Source: Xanthostigma xanthostigma
Taxonomy: Eukaryota; Arthropoda; Insecta; Raphidioptera; Raphidiidae
Assembly: GCA_963575645.1 (NCBI GenBank)
Contig: OY754467.1
Coordinates: 36,887,108 to 36,951,107 of the forward strand
Length of the DNA stretch: 64,000 nucleotides
Direction of reading: 5' to 3'
Numbering within the stretch: position 1 is the stretch's first letter; the number at the start of each line of letters is the position of its first letter. Shown piece after piece: positions 1 to 59,544 of the stretch. The translations under genes were made by a program, and so were the position numbers. Below the pieces are notes generated by a model that saw only the letters and a list, made by a program, of their open reading frames with translations, did no database searches and had not been told where the DNA came from.

Positions 1-509
1 GGATGTGACAAAACATGCCGAAGCCTCCCCCATGCATTAAAAAGCCAAGGTTCTTTCAATATACACACTTCCCAGCAGGTGTTTAATGTTTGCAAAAGAT
101 AAATTGAACAAATCTTTTATGCTTTAAATTTTGAGACAAGTTAAATTCATATATATCAAGTTTGATCACAATACCGATATCTCATTTCGCTTAGAAGTTA
201 AAATTCTCCAAGGATGAACTGCCCCCAGGCTTTTGAAAAAAGGACCCCGAAATTACATTATTTGTTGCATGATTTGATGATAGTGTAGTAATTGGTGAGG
301 GCCCCTTCAACTCCATACCATTTTAAAATTCTAGAATATATTACATTGACGCCGCTGTATCGTTTGCAAAGAATTTCACGAGATTTTCTTCTCAAGTCCT
401 GTGGAGCCCCATTTATCTTGGGATCCGACAGCTCAATATTCGAAAACCCTAGAACTTACATAACCCTTAAAACTGCATAAATGCGGTTACTATTTTATTT
501 TATTTTAGA
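1..509. other. no gene recognised
   Basis: AT-rich sequence without a convincing exon, RNA gene or terminal repeat. The only open frame (292-480) is short and has no recognisable motif. Confidence 0.5.
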
Positions 510-849
510 ACTAGCGGTCCCGCCCGGTTTCACCCGGGTGCAAAAAAACGAATAGGAGATGAAGGACATGAGTACGCACATTCATCTTAGTTTACCGAGA
601 TGATTGTTGTGTCTAAATTTCATGATGAGCAGAGTTACCGTTCAAAAGTTTTTGTCGGACGGACAAATTTTGAGTTACATTTTACAACATTTTTCATTGA
701 TGCTCCGCTCGTATTGATCGTAACGTGATATTATATAGCCTAACCTTCCTCGATAAATGGGCTATCTAACAAAAGAACAGTAGATCCTGAGATTAGCGCG
801 TTCAACCAAACAAACAAACAAACTCTTCAGTTTTATATATTAGTATAGA
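510..849 (-). mobile_element. Non-autonomous Helitron, copy 1
   Basis: Read on the minus strand, the 340-bp element starts with TCTATACTAATATATAAA (849 downward) and ends in CTAGT at 510. A short hairpin (CCCGG GTGAAA CCGGG) lies about 8 bases before that end. A 5' TC, a 3' CTRRT, a subterminal hairpin and insertion between host A and T are the Helitron hallmarks, and all are present here (A at 509, T at 850). No Rep/helicase coding is visible, so it was mobilised in trans. Near-identical termini occur at 2170-2766 and 10140-10796. Confidence 0.85.
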
Positions 850-1289
850 TTGGTGAACAGGTCTACGTAATTTCAAAGTGTAATAACTCGACGCGATATT
901 TATTGTGATTTAAAAAGCGTACAAGAATGTTTATTGGATGATTTTATTGCTGAAAACGACACTAATTAAATCATTTATATATTTTTTAGCAAGATATTTA
1001 CTTTTTATTGAAATCAGTTTGCAAAGAAAATAATAAAAAGTGGATGGAACATTTTGTGAAGAGTCGTTTAGTTGCGTCGTTAACTTAACGTAACGTAACT
1101 GCAAACTAAAGAGCAACAATCAATGTTTTAATTAGCACGTAAGTATACTCTATCTAGTATACAATAATTATCGGTCTCTTTTACTAGCAAGTTTCGTAAT
1201 TGTGAGCTGCGAGCATTAATTCATGGATGGGCAATTTTTAAGGTTCCATAATGTTAAAAATTAATTGATTATTTAATTCTAAAAACGAT
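850..1289. other. no gene recognised
   Basis: AT-rich spacer. The short open frame on the minus strand at 931-1119 has no recognisable domain. No terminal repeats were seen. Confidence 0.45.
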
Positions 1290-1760
1290 TGAATCATGTG
1301 TAATCATCGGTAATAAATATGTGTACAAAATTTCAAATCAATCGGAAATGTGACGTCCGCCATCTGGGATTTACAATGACGTCACATACCTGATCGCATT
1401 TCACTCTTCAAACTATTTTATTTGATACCCATGTCAAGAGGGTTGTAAAGAAAAAAGTATCCCGCCATCTTGGATTTACAATGACGTCACATGCCGTCGT
1501 GTTCCACTCGTCAAATTCTTTCATTTGACCTCCATGTCGAGAGTCTTGTGAAGAAAAGGGTAATCCGCCATATTGAATTTATCAGTTGTCATCGGACTTA
1601 TATACGTGTGCAAAAGCTCTAGCTTAATTATGATCTAGTCGAAATTTTGATTGCAAGTTTTGACCCAAACGGAACAGATTGACTGACAAACGTAGCAAAT
1701 TAATTAATAAAAGCTTGTTAAAACGGTACCCTGATAGTGCGAGTTCGTTGACTGTCTGTC
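1290..1760 (+). repeat. Dispersed repeat with CCGCCAT / TGACGTCA units
   Basis: Two imperfect units of about 115-125 bp carry CCGCCATCT or CCGCCATCTTGG followed closely by TGACGTCA (around 1368-1385 and 1462-1490). A third CCGCCATATTG lies near 1566. Each unit also has a phrase like TTTGATACCCATGTC. The same phrase order is found in every unit of the 120-bp satellite at 28.9-31.2 kb and, inverted, at 43.54-43.69 kb. The 3' part, with its run of CTGTC repeats, resembles the tails of insect non-LTR-type repeats, but no reverse transcriptase is present. Confidence 0.6.
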
Positions 1761-2169
1761 TGTCAGTCTCCATGTCACAGTTAATTTTCTCAAGAACTAC
1801 CTCTGATACCGACTTGAAAATTTAACACAATTATACAAATTTTGTATGATCTAATAGTCAAAATCACAACAAAAAAAATGTTTTTGTATATTTTTGAAGG
1901 ACGAACTTTTGTATTTGTAATACAAATGTGTAACAATGAATTATAAACGTACACTTTTCAGTATAAATTTCACTGAGTTATCTACAGTTTATTTGGTCAC
2001 TATTCAATTTCTTGGCATAGCTATTTTCAATAAAAAATTTAAGTTGTTAATTGTATTGTATTTATTTAGTATTAAATATTGTATTTGTTGTTCGTTGCCA
2101 TGCTTACCTACATATAATATGTACCACGTTTTCGTAATAAAATTATCTACATTTTCATATTATATTACA
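1761..2169. other. AT-rich spacer, no gene recognised
   Basis: The open frame at 1936-2232 runs into the Helitron terminus at 2170, so it is not a gene. It has hydrophobic stretches typical of translated AT-rich DNA. Confidence 0.45.
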
Positions 2170-2766
2170 ACTAGCGGTCCCGCACGGTTTCACCCGGGTG
2201 CAAAAGAATCAATGGGGAAGGAAGGGACATGAGTACACACATTCATCTTAATTTACCGAGATGAATGTTGTGTCCAAATTTCATGATGATCGGAGTTACC
2301 GTTCAAAAGTTTTTGTCGATAAAGAGCAGTATTTAAACTTTTTTTAACTAATAATTTTTTTAAATGGATTAAATAAAATTAAAATAAATAATGTAAGCCT
2401 TAAAAAATAAAAAAAAAATAAAAATATATTCACCCAACGTGGGACTCGAACCCACGACCCTGATATTGACAGTCGCATGCGCTACCGATTGATCTACCTG
2501 AGGTTGTGTTCTTTCATCACTAATATGAGTATATCTAGTTAGTGCATTTCACATGAATAGAAGCTTATTTTTGAGATACTTTTTGCAACATTTTTCATTA
2601 AAGCTCCGCTCCTAATGGTCATAGCGTAATATTATATAGCCTATAGCCTTCCTCGGTAAATGGGCTATCCAACAAAAAAAAATTTATTCAATTTGAACGA
2701 GTAGTTCCTGAGATTAGCGCGTTCAAACAAACAAACAAACTCTTCAGCTTTATATATTAGTATAGA
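2170..2766 (-). mobile_element. Non-autonomous Helitron, copy 2, with insertion
   Basis: The minus-strand element begins at the TC of TCTATACTAATATATAAA (2766 downward) and ends with the CTAGT complement at 2170. Host A at 2169 and T at 2767 match an A|T insertion site. Against copy 1 it holds about 250 extra bases (about 2320-2572) carrying a tRNA-like sequence, and about 10 bases of the Helitron are missing at that junction. The 3' hairpin has one changed base (CGCACGG instead of CGCCCGG). Confidence 0.85.
2437..2508 (-). tRNA. tRNA-like sequence, probably a SINE head and not functional
   Basis: On the minus strand a perfect T arm can be seen (GTGGG TTCGAGT CCCAC, an RNA polymerase III B-box type sequence). 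A D-arm with an AATCGGTA loop and an anticodon loop CTGTCAA, reading anticodon GTC (Asp), are also present. The acceptor stem and anticodon stem are poorly paired, with several mismatches in each. An A-rich tract of about 90 bp follows the 3' end. It looks like a decayed tRNA-derived module inside a Helitron and not a working tRNA gene. Confidence 0.5.
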
Positions 2767-3661
2767 TATAGATATAGAAGACGGGTATAACTGCAAAATA
2801 CTAATTCGAAGGTGCCTGTCTACCTGATTTAATGACAGGAATCAAAATGTCGACCAAACTTTGGCATTTTATATACGCATATTTTACTTTCGATTGGTAA
2901 TAAATTTATCAGAAAACTCGATAACTTCATTTCAGAAATAAAATAAACAACTTGAATTTTTTATTAAATATAGCTGTGCCAAGAGATTGAATGGTAACCA
3001 AATCAATTTTTCTTTATTAATACATTATATTATGAAAACTCAAATTTCATTAGAAAACTCGATGAACGAAGATCGAGCCAAATCGGGATCTTGTACTATT
3101 AGTATCGTTTGTTCGATTGTATGGGTTGTTTTATTAGACAAATTAATAGACATCGTGTCATTGATCAATTACTGACATTTAGAGTGGTGATTTGGCCATC
3201 CTTAGAGGAAGTCGTGCAACCAAACGAAGCCAAGCCAAGTGAAGTAAGTACTTTCACCGCCCTGTAATAATCGTTAAACTTTAACCATCACACAGTCAAC
3301 TTTTATGGCCGAACACCACAGGTCTTCTAATTATTGAGTTTACGGATGCGTCACTATCAGAGGCTCCGCCCTGCTTGGTTGCTGTTTTATTGTGTTCGTG
3401 CATGTCTCCACTCGGGAGATTCGACGCACCTTTAAATTGTCTCATCTTCATTTCTCATTGTGCGACGCTTCATAACCTCAAAATTACTATATTGTTAATC
3501 ACAGAATATCGATACAGGTGGATCAAAATTCGATCAGGAAAATTAGTACTTTTCGAGACAATTTTTGAAGTTGTGTTTTTTAACGTATGCCTTAGGACTA
3601 CGTTAAATATATATAAAATATGTCTAAATATACAGAGTAATTTTTAAGTTGATTCTTTTTT
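2767..3661. other. no gene recognised
   Basis: Starts with a short GATATA repeat, then AT-rich sequence. Open frames at 2987-3175 and 3375-3647 show no domain, signal peptide or codon bias that would support a gene. Confidence 0.45.
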
Positions 3662-4138
3662 TAACAGAGTGTAGAAATCAAATAGATGAACAAATATTTA
3701 AGTATCTACCTTTTTTATGAAAACTCAAAAATGAAAGAGAAACGGTCTTTCAAAGTTTTATTAATTTTTGTCAAATTTTGAGGTCGCTCGTGACGTTATG
3801 TTATGTCACTATGGAAATATGTTATGTCATTATCAAGTATTCACAGAAATTGTTCGAAGTTGTCCACGTTTTGTTGGACACAAAGACGCGTGCGTCGTAG
3901 CCATGCTTCCTGTACATGCTTGTAGTAGCGATAAGGGGGCCTTCCGCAAATTATTCGGGATGCATTTCCGATTCGTGCTATCATTTCTTCGCGTGCGTCA
4001 ACCGGGCTTGTGAATTAATTAAATAACATTTTAAAAATTTAATTCAACTTTGAACGGCTGTTTCTCTCTTATTTTTAAGTTTTGATAAAAAAGTTACTTA
4101 AAATATTTGTTCGTCTATTTGATTTCTACACGCTGTAA
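3662..4138. mobile_element. TIR element, family CAGMGTGTAGAAATC, copy 1
   Basis: About 477 bp bounded by long inverted ends: TTAACAGAGTGTAGAAATC at 3662 and GATTTCTACACGCTGTAA at 4120-4137. The inversion extends inward over the stretch that reads AACAAATATTT near 3690 and AAATATTTGTT near 4100. The interior has no coding signal; the open frame at 3768-4013 is also interrupted in the second copy (17447-18398). Classed as a MITE of unknown superfamily. Confidence 0.75.
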
Positions 4139-4161
4139 AAAAATAATCGACTTAAATTTTT

Positions 4162-4337
4162 TAACTTCCCGCTTTAAAAAAAAAAAAAAAAAAATTTTTT
4201 TTTTTCAAAAATCGGGAAGTTATTGGTTTCACCCCGATTTTCAAAAATCGAGTTTTCGCCAGATCTCGACGTTTTGGGGTCCTAGGAAGCTATTGAAACT
4301 ATTTTGGCGATGATGTCCGTAGGGCTGTATGTATGGA

Positions 4338-4377
<40 letters not shown>

Positions 4378-5253
4378 AACCTTTTATATCTTTTGAACGG
4401 AGTGTCCGACTGAAACGTGGTTTGCGGCATCTGACGTGATCTTGGTGAACTTAGACTTCCTGAAAATTTGAAACGATTCGGCCCAAAAAATTTTGAGAAA
4501 TCTTAAAAAAACAAGTTTCAAAAATTTTTAAAAATTTGTTTTTGTAAAAAATTTTCTAAACTACTAAACCGATTAATTCCAAAAACTAATCAGCTCTTCT
4601 CCTTAACAAACTGCGTCGATTTCCGCAAACCGCATCAAAATCGGTTCATTTGTTCACGAGAAACCGTGAACGAAAAAATCGTAAAAAAGTGTTTTTTTAA
4701 AATGACTCTTAAAATTGTTTTATCAGATTGATTTTTTTGTAATAAATTACTTTCTTAAGCTAAAAAAACTGCGTCGATCGCCGCAAACCATATCAAAATT
4801 GGTTCATTTGTTCATGAGATAACGTGAACGAAAAATTAGGAAAAAAGTAATTTTTTAAAATTACTCGTAAAATTCTTATCAAATCGATTTTTTTGTAATA
4901 ATTTACTTTCTTAGGTTAAAAAAACTGCGTCGATTGCAGCAAACCGCATCAAAATCGGCTCATTTGTTCACGAGATATCGTGAACGAAAAATTTTTAAAA
5001 AGTGTTTTTTTTTAAATTTCTCGTAAAATTCCTATGAGATCGATTTTTCTGTATAAAATTACTTTTTAAGGTTAAAAAATTGCGTCGACTGCCGCAAATC
5101 GCATCAAAATCGCTTCATTTGTTCATGAGATATCGTGAACGAAAATTTCGTAACAAAGTGTTTTTTTTTTGAGCTCGAAGAGCTAAAAAATAAACTTCTT
5201 GCTATATTTGACATATTTTTGAGCGTTTTGAACTCGAAAATAGCGGGAAGTTA
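4162..5253. mobile_element. TIR element with internal tandem repeats (AACTTCCCGC family)
   Basis: The element is bounded by TAACTTCCCGC (4162) and GCGGGAAGTTA (ending 5253). The left end also folds on itself, since CGGGAAGTT recurs at 4212-4220 in inverted orientation. The interior holds a GT-rich microsatellite (4331-4376) and then four units of about 157 bp (near 4605, 4765, 4920, 5078). Each unit has ACTGCGTCGAT, CCGCA, CATCAAAAT and CATTTGTTCA-GAGATA-CGTGAACGAAAAA. No coding region is evident. Confidence 0.65.
4331..4376. repeat. (GT)n / (ATGT)n microsatellite
   Basis: A run of GT dinucleotides is flanked by GTAT tetranucleotide repeats, inside the AACTTCCCGC element. Confidence 0.9.
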
Positions 5254-27928: not shown

Positions 27929-28660
27929 CATTCCAACCCACAAGTGGGGAATGGTACTAGTTTAGGTCAAAAATCACTTTTCAAAAATTTTCCAATATCT
28001 TTCCGTTTTGAGGTCCCCCGAATCCAAAAAACAGATTTTTGGAAAATCTCTGTGCGTCTGTTTGTCTGTGAACACGATACAGGTCAAACGGATGAGCGGA
28101 TTGAAACCAAATTTTGGGAGGATGTTTGGTATGCAAATATGAAGAGCCCTATTGTTTTTGGGGAAAATCGGCGCATGCGCAGAAGAGATATATGCTAAAA
28201 CGGTATTTTTTATATAATAATGGTATACTTTTCATAACGGCTTATTATTCTATTTATTTTTTCTAGAAAGTTTTGTTGAAAAAAAAATTTTCTAAACATT
28301 ATAGTTTCGGAAATATTTTGAAAATAAAAAAAAATCATCCGCTCTTTTGTTTTATGGATCTGTCAGAAATAAACTAGTTAAGCATGCTTTGATTAATTTT
28401 TACATGACGTGGAACATACTATGTAGGTAACCATGGCACCGAATAGTTAATATCATATTGAATACTAGCCATTGCCCGCGTCACCTCACGCGATATCAGA
28501 AATTTTATTTTCTTTATTATAATCAAAAGTCAACATTTTTGAAGTTGGAATGGTCCCGTCGCCCAATTGGCTGGAATTATTTTAAAACAATATCAAGATA
28601 CATGCAAAAAGTTTTGCACGGGTACACTAGTTATTATTCCAGCAGACAGCCACGACCAGA
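27929..28660 (+). repeat. Left arm of the satellite-bearing element (CCATTCC family), copy 1
   Basis: The arm opens with ACCATTCCAACCCACAAGTGG folding back to GGGGAATGGTA. It continues with GTGAACACGATACAGGTC, GGATTGAAACCAAATTTTGG and TCGGCGCATGCGCAGAAG. Sequence to 28660 matches 44761-45555 throughout, with small indels. The GGATTGAAACC to CATGCGC part is present inverted at 31440-31600, on the far side of the satellite. Confidence 0.75.
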
Positions 28661-28879
28661 GAAGTAAGTTAGTGACTAGGTTTAAAATAAAACCAGTGGG
28701 AGTATATGCCCAAGTAATTCAAGAATTACAAGGCGCGAAATTTTACATCATATATCCCGGTGTTTTGTTTGAAAATCGGTGTATATTTATCGTTCATCCC
28801 GGAAATTTTTTTTTAAAAACTACACATTTGCCCCTTCCCGTTTCAGTGCGAGACAATTCGCATACCCCTTTTTCAAAGC

Positions 28880-31205
28880 TTAGTCCGGCATCTTTAGAAG
28901 TCCGCCATATTGATTTTGAGTGATGTCACTTTATTTTTCGAGTTATTCTCAGCAAGCCCTTTCATTTGATACTATTATTGTAAGAAAGCATAATACAATT
29001 AGTTCGCCATCTTTAGAAGTCCGCCACATTGGATTTAGAGTGACGTCACTTTATTTTTCGAGTTATTCTCAGCAAGCTCTTTTATTTGATACCCATATTG
29101 TAGGAAAGCATAAAAATCTAAGTCTGCCATCATTAGAAGTCCGCCATATTAGATTTAGACTGACGTCACTTCATTTTTCGAGTTATTCTCAGCAAGCCAT
29201 TTCATTTGACACCCATATTGTAGGAAAGCATAATAAAGTTAGTCCGCCATCTTTAGAAGTCCGCCATATTGGATTTAGAGTAACGTCACTTTATTTTTCC
29301 AGTTATTCTCAGCAAGCTCTTCTATTTGATACCCATATTGTAGGAAAGCATAAAAAACTAAGTCCGCCATCATTAGAAATCCGCCATATTAGATTTAGAC
29401 TGACGTCACTTTATTTTTCGAGTTATTCTCAGCAAGCCCTTTCATTTGATACCCATATTGTAGGAAAGCATAATAAACTTAGTCCGCCATCTTTAGAAGT
29501 CCGCCATATTGGTTTTAGAGCGCCGTCACTTTATTTTTCGAGTTATTCTCAGCAAGCCCTTTCATTTCATACCCATATTGTAGGAAATCATAAAAAACTT
29601 AGTCCGCCATCTTTAAAAGTCCGCCATATTGGATTTAGAGTGACGTCACTTTATTTTTCGAGTTATTTTCAGCAAGCCCTTTCATTTGATACCCATATTG
29701 TGGGAAAGCATAAAAAACTTAGTCCGCCATCATTATAAGTCCGCCATATTAGGTTTAGACTGATGTCACTTTATTTTTCGAGTTATTCTCAGCAAGCCCT
29801 TTCATTTGATACCCATATTGTAGAAAAGCATAAATAACTTAGTTCGCCATCTTTAGAAGTCCGCCATATTGGTTTTAGAGTGACGTCACTTTATTTTTCG
29901 TATTATTTTTAGCAAGCCCTTTCATTTGATACCCATATTGTAGGAAATCATAAAAAACTTAGTCCGCCATCTTTAGAAGTCCGCCATATTGGTTTTAGAG
30001 TGACGTCACTTTATTTTTCGAGTTATTCTCAGCAAGCCCTTTCATTTGATACCCATATTGTAGGAAAGCATAATAAAATTAGTCCGCCATCTTTAGAAGG
30101 TCGCCATATTTGATTTAGAGTGACGTCACTTTATTTTTCGAGTTATTTTCAGCAAGCCCTTTCATTTGATACCCATATTGAAGGAAAGCATAAAAAACTT
30201 AGTCCGCCATCTTTAGAAGTCCGCCATATTGGATTTAGAGTGACGTCACTTTAAATTTCGAGTTATTTTCAGCAAGCCCTTTCATTTGATACCCATATTG
30301 TAGGAAATCATAAAAAACTTAGTCCGCCATCTTTAGAAGTCCGCCATTTGGTTTTAGAGTGACGTCACTTTATTTCTCGAGTTATTCTCAGCAAGCCCTT
30401 TCATTTGATACCCATATTGTAAGAAAGCATAATAAAATTAGTCCACCATCTTTAGAAGTCCGCCATATTGGTTTTAGAGTGACGTCACTTTATTTTTCGT
30501 ATTATTTTTAGCAAGCCCTTTCATTTGATACCCATATTGTAGAAAAGCATAAAAAACTTAGTCCGCCATCTTTAGAAGTCCACCATATTGGTTTTAGAGT
30601 GACGTCACTTTATTTTTCGAGTTATTCTCAGCAAGCCCTTTCATTTGATACCCATATTGTAGGAAATCATAAAAAACTTAGTCCGCCATCTTTAGAAGTC
30701 CGCCATATTGGTTTTAGAGTGACGTCACTTTATTTTTCGAATTATTCTCAGTAAGCCCTTTCATTTGATACCCATATTGTAGGAAAGCATAAAAAACTTA
30801 GTCCGCCATCTTTAGAAGTCCGCCATATTGGATTTAGAGTGACGTCACTTTATTTTTCGAGTTATTCTCAGCAAGCCCTTTCATTTGATACCCATATTGT
30901 AGGAAAGCATAAAAAACTTAGTCCGCCATCTTTAGAAGTCCGCCATATTGGTTTTAGAGTGACGTCACTTTATTTTTGAGTTATTCTCAGCAAGCCCTTT
31001 CATTTGATACCCATATTGTAGGAAAGCATAAAAAACTTAGTCCGCCATCTTTAGAAGTCCGCCATATTGGTTTTAGAGTGACGTCACTTTATTTTTGAGT
31101 TATTCTCAGCAAGCCCTTTCATTTGATACCCATATTGTAGGAAAGCATAATAAATTTAGTCCGCCATATTTAGAAGTCCTCCATATTGAATTTAGAGTGA
31201 CGTCA
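28880..31205 (+). repeat. 120-bp satellite, about 19 units
   Basis: Units of 120 bp start with TGACGTCACTTTATTTTTCG. Each continues with a short CAGCAAGCCC segment, TCATTTGATACCCATATTG, a GGAAAGCATAA segment, CCGCCATCTTTAGAAG and TCCGCCATATTGG. Units are mostly 90% or more alike by eye. A few single-base deletions (near 30348, 30976, 31095) shift the register. Early units alternate between an AGATTTAGAC and a GGATTTAGAG variant. Because 120 is a multiple of three, the array leaves a 272-codon open frame (28920-29738), which is a by-product and not a gene. Confidence 0.95.
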
Positions 31206-31413
31206 CACAGCTAACCATGCATTGTCATCCAAACTAAACGTGTATACAAATTTTTATCTCAATCGGTTGAAGATAACTGCTTCAAAATTACCGAAGGCAT
31301 TCTAGTCGCTCACTTAGTAATTTAGTCGCTCACTTATTAATTTAGTCACTCAACTATTATTTTAATATTCAAGTTATTAAAACAGTATCTCATCATCAGT
31401 CACCAAGTTTTTT

Positions 31414-31600
31414 TTTTATTCGACCGTTTTATAATTCCCCTTTTATTATTATATAAAACAACATTATAAGAGATATATTCTTTTACGCATGCGCCGATGT
31501 TCCCCAAAAACAATAGGCCACTTTATATTTGCATATCAAACATCCTCCCAAAATTTGGTTTTAATCCGCTCATCCGTGGTGTCGGAATGGTAAGAAATGT
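31414..31600 (-). repeat. Right arm of the satellite-bearing element
   Basis: Inverted match to 28040-28250: TACGCATGCGCCGATGTTC, then CAAACATCCTCCCAAAATTTGG, CCGCTCATCCG and GTCGGAATGG. The arms lie on opposite sides of the satellite, so the satellite sits inside a foldback-like element. Confidence 0.65.
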
Positions 31601-32260
31601 CAAAAGTGACGTTTGCATTTGTCAAAGTATTATGTTCTAATAATTAGTTATTCAAATTGTTAACTCAGAAGGCGTTGCATTTTACAAATATTGAAACGGC
31701 ATCCGTTTTTGAACAAATGCTACCTTTTTATTTCATTATTGTAATAAATAATATTATCGACCAATTTTATTTTAAGACAGAACATACGCAATTTTTAAAT
31801 TGCCGTGTTAAACCGTGCAACAGAGAGAGATAACCGAAAGATGTTTGCCATCGGTTATATCAAATTGAATTTATTTCTATATAAATGTGTATGAAAAAAC
31901 TGTTTGGGCATTTTCTGTTGTACGAATCTTATGTAAAATTTTCTCCTCTTTCGTTTAAGACAGGTTTCGAACCGATCTGATTTAAATTGAGCGAGTTATA
32001 AGCGAAAAATTTCGTTTTTTCCTTATTGCTCCCCTCTGGGGTCAAAATTCAAAAATCGGCCGACGTTACGAGCTAAGTTACGCGGAGACGAATCGAACAA
32101 AAAAAATTTTTTTGAAATCGGTTAAGGCGTTTGGTCTGTACGCGTGACACAAAAAAACGTGACACACAGATTCACAGATTCACAGAATCACAGATTCACA
32201 GATTCACAGACAAAGCGAGTACATATAGGCGCTTTAGCTTACGCTATTCGCGCCTAAAAA
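31594..32260 (+). repeat. Dispersed repeat, copy 1 of three
   Basis: The repeat begins AAATGTCAAAAGTGACGTTTGC and continues to GGCGCTTTAGCTTACGCTATTCGCGCC. Sequence to about 32000 matches 57215-57610, and 31850-32260 matches 42035-42690 inverted. It includes TTCTCCTCTTTCGTTTAAGAC and AACCGATCTGATTTAAATTGAG. The plus-strand frame at 32131-32436 crosses its end and is not a gene. Confidence 0.7.
32159..32210. repeat. (GATTCACA) minisatellite
   Basis: About six copies of an 8-bp GATTCACA-type repeat. The inverted copy of this element at 42316 has only one, so the expansion happened here. Confidence 0.9.
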
Positions 32261-33035: not shown

Positions 33036-33620
33036 ATGGCCAACTAAAGTTTTTGACTAATCACCTTAGAAACATGTCGCGATTTCCATAAAAAGTGAGT
33101 TCAATAATTCTCTATTACCCACTAGCGGCGCTAGTAGGCTTCGTGCACACAGCCTCCTAGTCAAGAACTGAGATTCATGAGAAAAATAGATCCAAGTCTC
33201 CAAAAAATATGTACAATAGCTTATTCGATTCGAAAAAATATTCCGAAAAAGACGTTTTTTTATTTTTTTCGCCGTCAAAAATTGCATTTGTTAACAAAAA
33301 ACGAAAAGACAAAAAAGCCCCGCAGAATGGCCAACAAAATTTTTTGACTAATCACCTTAGAAACATGTCGCGATTTCCATAAAAAGTGAGTTCAATAATT
33401 CTCTATTACCCACTAGCGGCGCTAGTAGGCTTCGTGCACACAGCCTCCTAGTCAAGAACTGAGATTCATGAGAAAAATAGATCCAAGTCTCCAAAAAATA
33501 TGTACAATAGCTTATTCGATTCGAAAAAATATTCCGAAAAAAACGTTTTTTTATTTTTTTCGCCGACAAAAATTGCATTTGTTAGCAAAAAACGAAAAGA
33601 CAAAAAACCCCGCAGATTTT
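33036..33620. repeat. 291-bp direct tandem duplication
   Basis: Two units start GGCCAACTAAAG/GGCCAACAAAAT (about 33038 and 33329). They share the same 73-codon reverse-strand frame (33066-33287 and 33357-33578), differing at two residues. Phrases include CTAGCGGCGCTAGTAGG, a short palindrome. Near identity over the full unit points to a recent duplication. Confidence 0.9.
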
Positions 33621-40197: not shown

Positions 40198-40690
40198 CAA
40201 CACTTCGTATCCCGCTTATATACCTCTCGTGGAAAGTACGTCACTCATTTGTGAACGCGTTTGTGTAACGTATTTGTGTCACTAATTTTCGTTTCACTGA
40301 TTTTACTCTCCAAATCGTGGATGCGTCGCTTAAGAGTTTCGTTTCAATATTACTGAAAAATGTCCGTATTTGTTTTGTACCTCTTGTGGAAAGTACGTCA
40401 CTCATTTGTGAACGCGTTTGTATAACGTATTTGTGTCAATAATTTTCGTTTCACTGATTTTACTCTCCAAATCGTGGATGCGCCGTTTAAGAGTTTCGTT
40501 TCAATATTATACTGAAATATGTTCGTATTTGTTTTGTACCTCTTGTGGGAAGTACGTCAATCATTTGTGAACGCGTTTGTGTAACGTATTTGTGTCACTA
40601 ATTTTCGTTTCACTGATTTTACTCTCCAAATCGTCGATGCGCCGCTTAAGAGTTTAATACTGAAATTACAGAACAATGTCCGAATTTGTT
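40198..40690. repeat. Tandem repeat, about 158 bp, three units
   Basis: Units around 40215, 40375 and 40535 share TACCTCTTGTGGAAAGTACG, TCATTTGTGAACGCG and TTTACTCTCCAAATCG. Similarity is high throughout, so the expansion is fairly young. Confidence 0.85.
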
Positions 40691-41490
40691 TTGTGACCAC
40701 ATGCTTGTAAGTAAAGCACGGCCGTCGTGTTCACAGCGCTTGGAAAAGCTGAAGTTGCAACAGAGCGAAAAATGACTAGAGAGATGTTTTACCACTTGTC
40801 AGCACATGTACGTGTATATTGTACAAAAACAGTCCGCGCCGTCCTGGTAATAGCTTAAATGGCCATCCGTTTCTTTGCAAATATGAAATGCACGTCTTCA
40901 AATCTCGCCCAGCTTTCTTTTCGAAGGTGCAGACACCAGGGATGTAGATATAGAAAAAAACAAACGCTAGTGAAAAGATATTAGTTATCGGCGTAACTAG
41001 TAGTCTAAGTTATTCATGGCGTGTCATGACTTAGCCTACAAGTTGCGCCCATAATTTTATTCAACAATTGCGCGTTATTCATGTTTTAATTATAATGAGA
41101 TGTTGTAAATATCTATTTATTTCTTTAAAAAAAAAACTGTCAATACTAACAGCACCAAACAGCACGATTCAATGTTTTGGTTTGAGGTTATCCGGTTATG
41201 AATAAACTCCATGTCGAAAACATTCGGTCTCTCAATTTTAGTCTCAATGGGTAACAACGGAGTTGTTGTTACCTACTATTTCGTTACGACTCAGAAAATA
41301 GTTACGTTTATTTTCATTACTCCACAATGGCCGAGCTAGTAGGAATCTTCATTGAGTTATGACAAGTAATTGTCACCAGTCGGTAAATGGCTATTTAGGG
41401 TTCGGTTTTTAGGCATGATAAAACATGAATAACGCGCATGAGTTGAATAAACATACTTATATTTGTATTACATAATTTTATTATATCTAA
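40691..41490. other. no gene recognised
   Basis: No exon, RNA gene or repeat boundary supported. Confidence 0.4.
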
Positions 41491-42690: not shown

Positions 42691-43539
42691 ACGAACGGTC
42701 CTCATAGGTACAACGTTTTCTCAAAGTGGTGAGATTTTGCCGTTTATAAACGTTCCGCGACGACCCCTTTGTTACGACTACATCCCTGGCAGCCAATGCA
42801 TTGTTGCAGGTAGCGTTGCATATAAAATAAAGTGTCGATGAAAAAATATAGATATAATTTTTAACAATTCTTCAAATTTAAAGTACTATTACTGCATTTT
42901 GCACATGCATTTTTATTGGAAATTAATGGTTTTCGCACCGAGATTTCAATCAGTCTATTACATTTATTTTTATTCAAAGCATTGTTAAAAATAAACAATA
43001 AGTACGGCCGTTTGATTTTTGAACTCCTGAAGTACATGCGCTGCCGATAGCACGATATTGAAAATAATAATCATAAAAACAAATTGAAAGCCGGGATAGG
43101 CTGTATGATAATTTATCCATTAATGAAAAGAGATTATCAGGGTAGGTAATTCTCGCATCTCGATCATACTATTAATCTTAACCGATAAACAATTAAATTA
43201 AAAGTCCCGGACCTCCACCATATTCCAACCGGCACCTCCACCATAATGTGAATAAAATACCTAGTCGGCCAAAGTGTCTTTTTACATTATTTTACATGTG
43301 TGAGACTTTTCTTTGGCCGAGTGAATAGTCAACCATTTTGTATTTCTATAAAATTTCTACAGCTAAGTTGTTAGCAACCAGTTTGACAAGCTTTTATTTA
43401 ACTTCACCTGTTAATGTTAGCCAGTATGTTTAGGTCAAATATTGCAATCAAATTTCGACTATTTCTAATTAAGCTCGAGTTTAAATCTTAACATGGTATG
43501 TATTTAATATAGTATAACTGATATAATTGTAAATCTAAT
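42691..43539. other. no gene recognised
   Basis: No supported features; a short direct duplication of CCTCCACCAT occurs near 43215 and 43235. Confidence 0.4.
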
Positions 43540-43690
43540 ATGGCGGACGCCCCAAGATGGCGGGTTACGTTATTCTTTACAACCTTTTGACATGGGTATC
43601 AAATGCAAGAGTTTGACGAGTAGAATACGATAAGCTATCGTAAATCGAATATGACGGACGCCCCCAGATGGTGGATTGCCTTTTTCTTAC
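43540..43690 (-). repeat. CCGCCAT-type repeat, inverted copy
   Basis: ATATGGCGGACGCCCCAAGATGGCGGG and GACATGGGTATCAAATGC are the reverse complement of the phrases at 1365-1510 and of the satellite unit. The TGACGTCA site is lost here. Confidence 0.6.
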
Positions 43691-44009
43691 ATTATCAATT
43701 TTTATTTATTTATTTTATAATTATCATTTTATTGAAATGTAGGTACTGCAAAAAAAAATAATAACTTAGGTTCATAATCATGGCATGATAGTTTATTAGT
43801 TAAAGCCCACGTTTTTTAAGTTAAATTTTTAAAAATTGTATTATCCTTTTTTGTACGTTTTAATGAAATGCTCGTCTTTGAAACGTTTCTTTTTTCTATT
43901 TAATATTCTTTGTGTTTGAAGGTTATTTTATATTGCCTTGTCAATTTTCATTTGCTAATGTTACAATTTTTTTAGGCCACTACCTACTAACCTAGTATCA
44001 ACTACCAAC
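43691..44009. other. no gene recognised
   Basis: AT-rich spacer. Confidence 0.4.
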
Positions 44010-44760: not shown

Positions 44761-45555
44761 CCATTCCAACCCACAAGTGGGGAATGGTATTAGTTTAGGT
44801 CAAAAATCACTTTTCAACAATTTTACAATGTCTTTTCGTTTTGAGATCCCACGAATCCAAAAAACATATTTTTGGAAAAACTGTGCGTCTGTTAGACTGT
44901 GAACATAATACAGGTCAAACGAATGACCGGATTGAAACCAAATTTTGGGAGGATGTCTGGTATGCAAATGTGAAGGGCCCTATTATTTTTGGGGACTATC
45001 GGCGCATGCGCAGAAGGGATATATGCTATAACGGTGTTTTTGTATAATAATGGTACACTTTTCATAACGGATTATTATTCTATTTATTATTTCAAGAAAG
45101 TTTCGTTAAAATTTTTTTTTTTAAACTTCATAGTTCCGGAAATATTTTGAAAATAAAAAAAATCAGCTGTTCTTTTGTTTTGTAGATCTGTCAGAAATAA
45201 ACTAGCTAAGCATGCTTTGATTAATTTTTACATAACGTGAAATATTATGTAGGTAACCATGGCAACGAATAGCAAATATTATTTTAAAGAATAGCTTCTG
45301 TTGCTACATTGTTAAAACATTCATTGTTACATGTCTATATTAGAAAAAAATATTTCTCAAACAATGTCACCATCGGGATACGAACACCGAATCTTTCCAC
45401 TGTCGCGGCGGACTGAGTTACATTACCAGCAAATATTATATTAAATAATAGCCATTACCCACGATATCAGAAATTTTATTTTCTTTATTATAGATACTAT
45501 AGGTATTAAATGTCAACATTTTGAAGTTGGAATGATCCCGTCGCCCAATTGGCTG
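44761..45555 (+). repeat. CCATTCC family element, copy 2, with SINE insertion
   Basis: Matches 27929-28660 from ACCATTCCAACCCACAAGTGG through CCCAATTGGCTGGAATT. Differences are mostly single bases. It has an extra 131 bp (45297-45427) that copy 1 lacks. Confidence 0.75.
45297..45427 (-). mobile_element. tRNA-like SINE with 25-bp target duplication
   Basis: The 131-bp insert is flanked by AGCAAATATTAT(T/A)TTAAA(G/T)AATAGC on both sides (45272-45296 and 45428-45452), with two mismatches. The copy at 28450 has a single, diverged equivalent. On the minus strand it starts GGTAATGTAACTCAGTCCG, D-arm-like, and continues to GGTGTTCGTATCCCG, B-box-like. Long target duplications are the mark of LINE-mediated retroposition. 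Confidence 0.65.
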
Positions 45556-57087: not shown

Positions 57088-57780
57088 TTGGTTGTCTGTA
57101 AAGTCGGTTTACGGACGATAGTTTTACGTGATAACGTATTCCGTAATACATAACCTAAACCTCCCAAAATTTGGTTTCAATCCGCTTATCCTTGGTGTCG
57201 GAATGATAAGAAATGTCAAAAGTGACGTTTGCAACTTACAAAGTATTATGTTCTAATAATAATTAGTTATTCCAATACTTAACTTAGAAGGCTTTGCATT
57301 TCACAATATACTAATGTCAAAAAATTGAATTAAACATTAGAAATGCAGCTGTTTTCATGTTAAGACAAGACATACGTTTGCTTCTAATTTCCATGTACGG
57401 CAAACAAAGACAACTGACCGCGTCGCCCCATGCATTACACAACATTGCATTTATACAGCTATTTTTCTATATAAAATAAAATATTTTTCTATATAAATTT
57501 GTATAAAAAAACTGTTTAGGCAAATTCTGTTATACGAAATCTATGTAAAATGTTCTCCTCTTTCGTTTAAGACTGGTTTCAAACCGATCTGATTTAAATT
57601 GAGCGAGAAATTAGCAAAAAGCACGCACAGGGTCAGGCGGAACGTTACGCGTTAGGAACGTTAGGAACGTTACGTTACACTTTTTCGAACATGCAGCCGG
57701 TGTTTTATCAATTTATAAGATTGGTGATTCATCAATTTATAAGACGTTATCACGTCAAAAAATAAGTTTCAGAACTAAAA
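57088..57780. mobile_element. MITE-like repeat, TTGGTTGTCTGTAAAGTCGG family, copy 2, interrupted
   Basis: The start matches 33840 (TTGGTTGTCTGTAAAGTCGG, GGACGATAGTTTTACGTG). It breaks at 57163, resumes at 57619 with GCACGCACAGGGTCAGGCGG, and ends near TTATAAGACGTTATC. The break holds another repeat (57163-57618). Confidence 0.6.
57163..57618 (+). repeat. Dispersed repeat, copy 3, nested
   Basis: Matches 31553-32005: CCTCCCAAAATTTGGTTTCAA, GGTGTCGGAATGATAAG, AAATGTCAAAAGTGACG, TTCTCCTCTTTCGTTTAAGAC and TGATTTAAATTGAGCGAG. It sits inside the copy of the TTGGTTGTCTG repeat and so is younger than it. Confidence 0.7.
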
Positions 57781-58800: not shown

Positions 58801-59350
58801 ACACGGGTTAGTGGTCACTTACGCCATATAGAGGACTTCCGTGCAAAATTTCATACTTCTAGATCCACCGGTTTAGGCTGAGTGTTGTTCGTCAGTCCAG
58901 TGTTAAAGTTTTAACTAAGTGGATTAACCCCATAGGAGATGAATTTTCAAAAATCCTTTCTTAGTGCTTACTTACGTCATATGGGAACTTCTGTGCAAAA
59001 TTACATGCTTCATTGCTTCTAGACCCATCGGTTTAGGCTGTGCGTTATACGGTCAGTCAATGTTAGAGTTTTAACTAAGTAGGTATATTAACTTAGGGGA
59101 TGAATTTTCAAAATTATTTCTTTAGTACACAATATCCACGTTATATAAGGAGCTCATGTGTAAAATTTCATTGCTCTAGACCTACCGGTTTAGCCTGTGC
59201 GTTGTACGGTCAGTCAATGTTTAACTATGTAGATTAATCCCCTTAGGGGATGAACTTTCAAAAATCCTTCTTAAGTACACATCCACATTATATAGGAAAC
59301 TCATGTACAAAATTGCATTGCTCTAGACATACCGGTTTAAGCTGTTCGCT
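58801..59350 (+). repeat. Tandem subrepeats, about 130 bp
   Basis: Four imperfect units share CGGTTTAGGCTG-GCGTT, ACGGTCAGTCAATG, TTAACTAAGTAGATTAA, CCTTAGGGGATGAA, TTTTCAAAAATCCTT and CTTACG-CATATAGG. The same unit occurs once in each 1.7-kb repeat at 60830-61080 and 62510-62740. Confidence 0.75.
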
Positions 59351-59544
59351 GTCTGTCAGCCTTTAGAGTAGAAAAAGTGAAAACAGTAGAATTTTTTATT
59401 GCAGTAATATCGATAAAACGTAAATATCAGAAATTTGCTATCCGGCACCCAGAAACAGTTAAGAGGTATTTATAGCAAATAAAAAAAGACGTCAGGCTGT
59501 TATCTAATTAATTATATTTTTAAAATTTTAACCCCTTCCACAGT

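Follow-up and report, generated by a model that had tools for sequence, protein, structure and literature searches.

A 120-bp tandem array with YY1-type and CRE motifs in Xanthostigma xanthostigma, the probable central repeat of a HINE (non-autonomous Helentron)

Tandem array and motif content

The window (the whole stretch of 64 kb that was analysed) contains a tandem array with a period of 120 bp, for which Tandem Repeats Finder gives 19.5 copies with 92% matches, in agreement with the roughly 19 units of 120 bp reported in a preliminary description of this DNA. The array is embedded in a longer repeated element, designated element A, and two degenerate copies of a second unit family (family 2) are located elsewhere in the window (Table 1).

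Table 1. Position and strand of element A, its parts and the family-2 relatives of the array in the window
Feature	Position	Strand	Remarks
Degenerate family-2 copy	1357..1581	+	same motif order
Element A, HINE-type (non-autonomous Helentron), 3565 bp	28693..32257	-	copies with different flanks; joined-flank empty sites of other copies
Element A 3' module	28693..28874	-	palindrome GTAATTC..GAATTAC 21 bp from 3' end; subterminal repeat TTCGCGCCT 38 bp from 3' end
Central tandem array	28875..31206	+	consensus unit carries CCGCCATCTT, CCGCCATATT, TGACGTCA and box TTTCATTTGATACCCAT
Tail common to both HINE carriers of the array	31207..31302	+	CAGCTAACCATGCATTGTCATCC..CTCAATCGG..
20-bp tandem repeat TAGTCGCTCACTTATTAATT within the tail	31303..31364	+	Tandem Repeats Finder
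About one unit of the NRF1-type (~123-bp) repeat family	31420..31520 (limits approximate)	+	ACGCATGCGC at 31485
8-bp CACAGATT microsatellite near element A 5' end	32165..32210	+	Tandem Repeats Finder
Element A 5' end	32225..32257	-	TTAGGCGCGAATAGCG..CTAAAGCGCC hairpin enclosing 5' subterminal repeat AGGCGCGAA
Degenerate family-2 copy	43533..43720 (limits approximate)	-	

On the opposite strand, the YY1-type word CCGCCATNTT reads AANATGGCGG, the YY1 consensus core, and TGACGTCA is the complete palindromic CRE. Within the array, exact matches number 12 for CCGCCATCTT, 16 for CCGCCATATT and 16 for TGACGTCA, and looser YY1-type words number 31 (any CCGCCAT) and 36 (GCCAT). When the 19 near-complete units are tallied, the last partial unit (about 31148-31206) being excluded, CCGCCATCTT is exact in 12/19, CCGCCATATT in 15/19 and TGACGTCA in 15/19, and all three are exact together in 7/19. 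The earlier statement that every unit has all three motifs is therefore correct for the consensus but not for individual copies. The naming of the motifs as YY1-type and CRE stands at the sequence level, the motifs being exact, and exactly spaced, between two diverged unit families (see below). For the proposed comparison with shuffled units, one unit was shuffled 100,000 times with its dinucleotides preserved; 188 of the shuffled sequences contained CCGCCATNTT (on either strand), 53 contained TGACGTCA and none contained both. The two YY1-type boxes look like the product of one internal 17-bp duplication and so do not represent two independent events.

A repeat frame of 272 aa is present at 28920-29738. 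It arises because one of the six frames of the 120-bp unit is free of stops, which is estimated to be expected fairly often by chance when a repeat period is divisible by 3; a coding array was rejected on this ground, the frame being probably fortuitous. A family search of positions 1-4800 of the window gave no match.

Boundaries and insertion sites of element A

Both flanks of the array are themselves repeats and are paired around arrays. The right flank has 414 candidate places in the genome (40 of 414 scored) and the left flank, corresponding to the 3' module, has 1,410 (40 of 1,410 scored), the loci derived from them being chosen by flank similarity. Other copies align to the window from about 28691 to about 32261, and sequence divergence from copy to copy begins to the left of CCAGTGGGAGTATATGCCC and to the right of GGCGCTTTAGC..GCGCCTAA. 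Element A, whose Helentron sense is that of the minus strand, ends in CCAGTGG (28693) and CGCCTAA (32257), these limits being exact to within the flanking A-run. Its 3' end has 641 exact copies genome-wide.

Among the 17 loci examined, 14 copies of element A have both ends; they span 1,584-5,007 bp, at least one of them (L013) including a nested element B (1376-4661 of that locus), and array length varies between copies. The base before the element is A in 14/14 copies and the base after it is A in 13/14; CCTAA is followed by AAA in 13 of the 14 and by TAA in one, and variable terminal T runs were not clearly seen. Joined flanks matched across the junction for 7/14 copies and, when compared with the fetched loci, gave no junction-spanning match for the other 7/14; the window's own copy had no match. 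Three of the empty sites are ungapped with 19-20 of 20 positions identical (L017, L066 and L020), the match of L017 being an inverted copy within the same locus; in the best match of L032 the junction is identical and a 3-bp gap lies 9 bp away; and the matches of L065 (paralogues 3-6 bp shorter), L046 and L038 are gapped or poor. Where an empty site was found, the A|A (TT) target shows no target-site duplication. Another region of the window (57203-57546) resembles parts of element A and its insertion sites, and corresponds to another A-like or related repeat.

Element B, a second carrier of the array

The same array-plus-tail module is carried by a second HINE, element B, whose ends are unrelated to those of element A. 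Its plan matches that of element A in different letters, with TTTTGACGTGATAACGT at the start and the complement 38 bp from the end (subterminal repeat ACGTGATAACGT; distance counted by hand), and with the palindrome GTCCGTAAACCGACTTTACAGAC near the end. The orientation of the module relative to the ends is the same in both HINEs. At the first 16 listed loci of the CCGCCATCTT..CCGCCATATT doublet, which were not picked by flank, 14 have a family-1 array, and upstream of all 14 lies the 3' end of element B (10) or of element A (4); of the remaining two, one is without such a unit and one has a diverged relative. The 3' end of element B has 20,702 exact copies genome-wide.

In element B, moreover, the 5' terminal sequence occurs a second time immediately ahead of the array (L009, L010, L012, L013, L015, L016, L018, L019, L021 and L022), so that the order in Helentron sense is 5' end, tail, array, a further 5' end and finally the 3' end; L010 is without the B 5' end beyond the array. 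This order looks like the result of read-through into an adjacent copy of B, by which tail and array would have been captured. In L012 and L022, only the 5' end of element A was found downstream of element B.

Assignment to the HINEs and comparison with known systems

Canonical Helitrons (Helitron1) have a 5' TC and a 3' CTRR and insert between A and T. This assignment was rejected for element A, which has 5' (T)TTAGG and an A|A target; its 3' end reads CTGG by coincidence. A classical satellite would form long arrays in heterochromatin, unconnected with mobile elements; this reading was likewise rejected, the arrays here being short, dispersed and in 14/14 cases beside an A or B end. The satellite described at first is therefore not a free-standing one: the array very probably forms the tandemly repeated centre of a non-autonomous Helentron (HINE) that spread through the genome.

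HINEs are described as carrying one subterminal repeat close to the 5' end and another 38-60 bp from the 3' end, together with a 3' palindrome; they insert at TT without target duplication, their T runs vary in length and some contain tandem repeats (PMC4067079). A TT target is also given for Helentrons (PMC5148889). In element A, (i) AGGCGCGAA adjoins the 5' end and its complement is located 38 bp from the 3' end, as in the subterminal inverted repeats of HINEs, (ii) the palindrome GTAATTCTTGAATTAC lies 21 bp from the 3' end, (iii) insertion is at TT without target-site duplication, as indicated by the flanking A (14/14 before, 13/14 after) and the three ungapped empty sites, and (iv) central repeats are present in the form of the 120-bp array and the CACAGATT microsatellite. 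In minus-strand sense, a run of T precedes the element, and AGGCGCGAA is enclosed in a strong hairpin at the 5' end (-18.7 kcal/mol). Judged by its structure, the array-bearing element is a HINE with an unusual conserved motif cassette.

Helitron_like_N matches number 89 genome-wide, of which 43 are in open frames of 1,498-2,509 aa. The sequence covered at the Rep/helicase matches (eight loci and one 901-bp stretch, all too short to be decisive) contained none of the A or B ends. Many places in the genome (C4:22521072, C6:30865189, C2:24891614 and others) have Helitron Rep/helicase genes whose scores are nearly the same and whose open frames are about 1,555 aa long, which suggests recent activity of canonical Helitrons.

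Several known systems share part of this organization. The HINE/DINE-1 elements, as described in PMC4067079, agree in the positions of the subterminal inverted repeats, the 3' palindrome, the TT target, the lack of duplication and, in some elements, central repeats, but the termini and central repeats of the present elements are other sequences than those given there, and variable T runs were not clearly seen in them. The Cg_HINE elements of the Pacific oyster likewise have dispersed satellite-like arrays as central repeats, and some contain two different arrays (PMC7492417). Each Cg_HINE has its own combination of flank and repeat, whereas here one repeat is common to two HINEs with unrelated ends, which is a modest difference. 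The term "transcription factor" is absent from the main text of that paper. Tandem units with YY1 motifs inside a mobile element are also known from the 5'UTR monomers of mouse L1 Tf, where, according to PMC11602158, the YY1 sites are responsible for synergy between monomers and distant monomers are modelled as enhancers; in contrast to the present case, that array is a retrotransposon promoter of unrelated sequence and mobility, and function was shown there. The Drosophila DINE-1-like elements cited in PMC4067079 are Helentron relatives that disperse sites to which host proteins bind (the cases named are MSL sites in D. miranda and Cyp genes), although the factors are others and the present sites are sequence matches. 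Finally, the D4Z4 and DXZ4 macrosatellites are tandem arrays bound by YY1, as the arrays here carry YY1-type motifs, but these are human arrays of kilobase units at few loci, are not transposon central repeats and have demonstrated binding (PMC3465993).

In IMG/VR, neither the cassette nor any of three sequences from the ends had a match, and a literature search with six sequence strings of the element returned no paper. Title and abstract searches (YY1/CRE tandem repeats, Helitron binding sites, pleiohomeotic satellites) gave no paper describing this array among the matches listed.

Genome-wide abundance of the motifs

The 623-Mb genome contains 11,680 copies of the CCGCCATCTT..CCGCCATATT doublet and 0 of its control. 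Arrays of similar make-up are thus present elsewhere in the genome; their absence would have spoken against the preliminary description. CCGCCATNTT occurs 42,957 times vs 1,909 for the reversed pattern, about 23,360 of these sites being within doublets; CCGCCATNTTGGNTTTANNNTGACGTCA occurs 7,933 times (control 0) and TGACGTCA 58,816 times vs 8,900 for its control (6.6-fold). Since every word of a high-copy repeat becomes enriched, these counts indicate supply and not selection. Outside the array, several TGACGTCA sites form pairs about 145-153 or 66-75 bp apart (100 matches listed, first 0.75 Mb of C1), a spacing that suggests further CRE-bearing repeat families.

Conservation of the motif cassette

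Conservation within family 1 was measured on 521/589 units from 47 loci, weighted per locus, some of the loci having been picked by flank similarity. Mean identity to the consensus is 0.961, and the boxes reach 0.963 (first YY1), 0.983 (second YY1), 0.968 (CRE) and 0.988 (box4, TTTCATTTGATACCCAT); the proportion of windows equal to or above the box is 68%, 18%, 55% and 1.9%, respectively. No special conservation of the YY1 and CRE motifs is thus seen among these copies, and only box4 stands out. This decay within family 1 counts against selection on individual copies and fits dead transposon copies. When CpG columns are excluded, motif columns are slightly above the rest in both families (0.974 vs 0.958 in family 1; 0.942 vs 0.900 in family 2). 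In family 1, the decay is as slow at CpG columns (0.9595) as at the others (0.9611), and there is therefore no sign of methylation-driven loss in this family.

The second unit family has a consensus of 122 bp and the same box order (33/44 units, 13 loci). In window ranks, its second YY1 box and CRE are in the top 7-9%, box4 is at 15% and the first YY1 box at 42%. In the 93 ungapped columns of the comparison between the two consensus sequences, the YY1-YY1-CRE columns are identical at 28/28 and box4 at 17/17, against 28/48 for the rest, and the boxes start at 0, 17, 37 and 76 in both families, with identical spacing of 17, 20 and 39 bp. The difference between motif columns and all other columns gives p = 2.7e-4 in a Fisher test that treats columns as independent, and random footprints of the same size were all identical in 513 of 200,000 draws. 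The first, gapped comparison of the families had given 28/28 vs 62/85 (p 6e-4). A rigid-shift test does not discriminate, another shift also giving 28/28; it was set aside, and the argument is based on the ungapped comparison and the random footprints. The motifs were named before the families were compared, which makes the test a fair one, but it involves two consensus sequences only. Free variation of the motifs next to conservation of the remaining unit is not the pattern found: family-1 motifs vary about like the rest, and they are identical between the family consensuses.

Because the boxes are fully identical at identical spacing and the rest of the unit is not, the YY1-YY1-CRE-box4 cassette is likely to be under constraint, as far as two consensus sequences can indicate. 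To our knowledge, box4 corresponds to no known binding factor. That this fourth box is equally kept shows that the YY1-type and CRE motifs would not be the whole story, and the constraint may concern neither YY1 nor CREB, since the conserved blocks reach past the motifs and include box4.

Proposed mechanism and alternative explanations

Taken as a whole, the observations are best explained if the array is a HINE central repeat that the element carried to many places, and this explanation is likely overall. The element would be mobilised by a Helentron Rep/helicase encoded at another locus, and the array would grow and shrink by slippage or unequal exchange. The cassette would be kept in the mobile lineage because host activators would bind its candidate sites, and the element would thereby remain in germline chromatin that is open, transcribed or replicating; dead copies would afterwards decay evenly. 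Activator recruitment as the cause of retention, by analogy with the YY1-bearing monomers of mouse L1 Tf promoters, is proposed tentatively. One match to a CREB-type pKID exon is present in the genome.

The most serious competing account, and a quite possible one, is a HINE central repeat without regulatory role, in which the motifs hitch-hike and the identity between families reflects common ancestry and uneven drift. The roughly average conservation of the family-1 motifs, the enrichment of any word in a high-copy repeat and the equal conservation of box4, for which we know of no factor, all agree with it; uneven drift accounts less well for 28/28 and 17/17 identical columns vs 28/48 at identical spacing over 93 ungapped columns, which is reflected in the Fisher p of 2.7e-4 and in the 513 of 200,000 random footprints. 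The four boxes could instead serve the replication or recombination of Helentrons (Rep nicking, strand pairing, array expansion) and not host factors. Such a role would suit box4, for which we know of no host factor, and the fact that the module keeps one orientation relative to the termini in both HINEs, whose ends are unrelated. This is unlikely, given that the YY1-type and CRE boxes agree with host-factor consensus sequences over nearly their whole length. Oyster HINEs, moreover, have several unrelated central repeats (PMC7492417).

The preliminary description had considered the array as a potential sink for such proteins or a site of chromatin regulation. That its main role is to titrate Pho and CREB, or to serve them as a Polycomb-response-like site, would be in keeping with the genome-wide excess of CCGCCATNTT (42,957 vs 1,909, about 23,360 in doublets) and with the YY1-bound tandem arrays of humans, D4Z4 and DXZ4 (PMC3465993), but it appears very improbable, because the arrays at the loci examined are short, dispersed and inside mobile elements and because site number alone is no proof of titration. 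A chromatin role is possible by analogy, as YY1 binds human D4Z4 and DXZ4. Under the preferred reading, that of a HINE central repeat with a retained cassette, an ordered host-factor cassette identical in two diverged families offers a directly testable reason why HINEs often keep central repeats, namely as activator platforms. If this is true, tens of thousands of YY1-type sites would have been newly supplied to the genome by one transposon class, and genes close to them would be affected.

NRF1-type repeat and other tandem arrays

A separate tandem unit of about 123 bp carries the palindrome GCGCATGCGC, an NRF1-type word, which has 15,435 exact sites genome-wide vs 54 for the reversed pattern. 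Short tandem runs of this unit were found in L010 (4607-4853), L012, L013, L016 and L066 (4390-4641). In the window, sites of the unit are located at 28171, at 45002 and, inside element A, at 31485, the last in a degenerate unit, where ACGCATGCGC differs from GCGCATGCGC by one mismatch. YY1, CRE and NRF1 sites are housekeeping-type motifs, and the presence of three such candidate motifs on repeats of one genome is suggestive. It is conceivable, although rather unlikely, that selection has kept the central repeats of Helentrons here as cassettes of activator sites, with YY1-YY1-CRE in one repeat and the NRF1-type palindrome in the other. The elements would then act as mobile multi-unit enhancers that recruit host activators, would thereby stay in open chromatin and would contribute a large share of such sites in the genome. 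If so, NRF1-type sites would likewise have been re-supplied, through another repeat.

A tandem array with a 156-bp unit occurs in the window (4608-5167) and also in L010 (5651-6199) and L016 (4701-5258); this array is dispersed, and may possibly be another transposon central repeat. Further tandem arrays of the window have units of 291 bp (33036-33616), 157 bp (40221-40694) and 160 bp (58841-59359).
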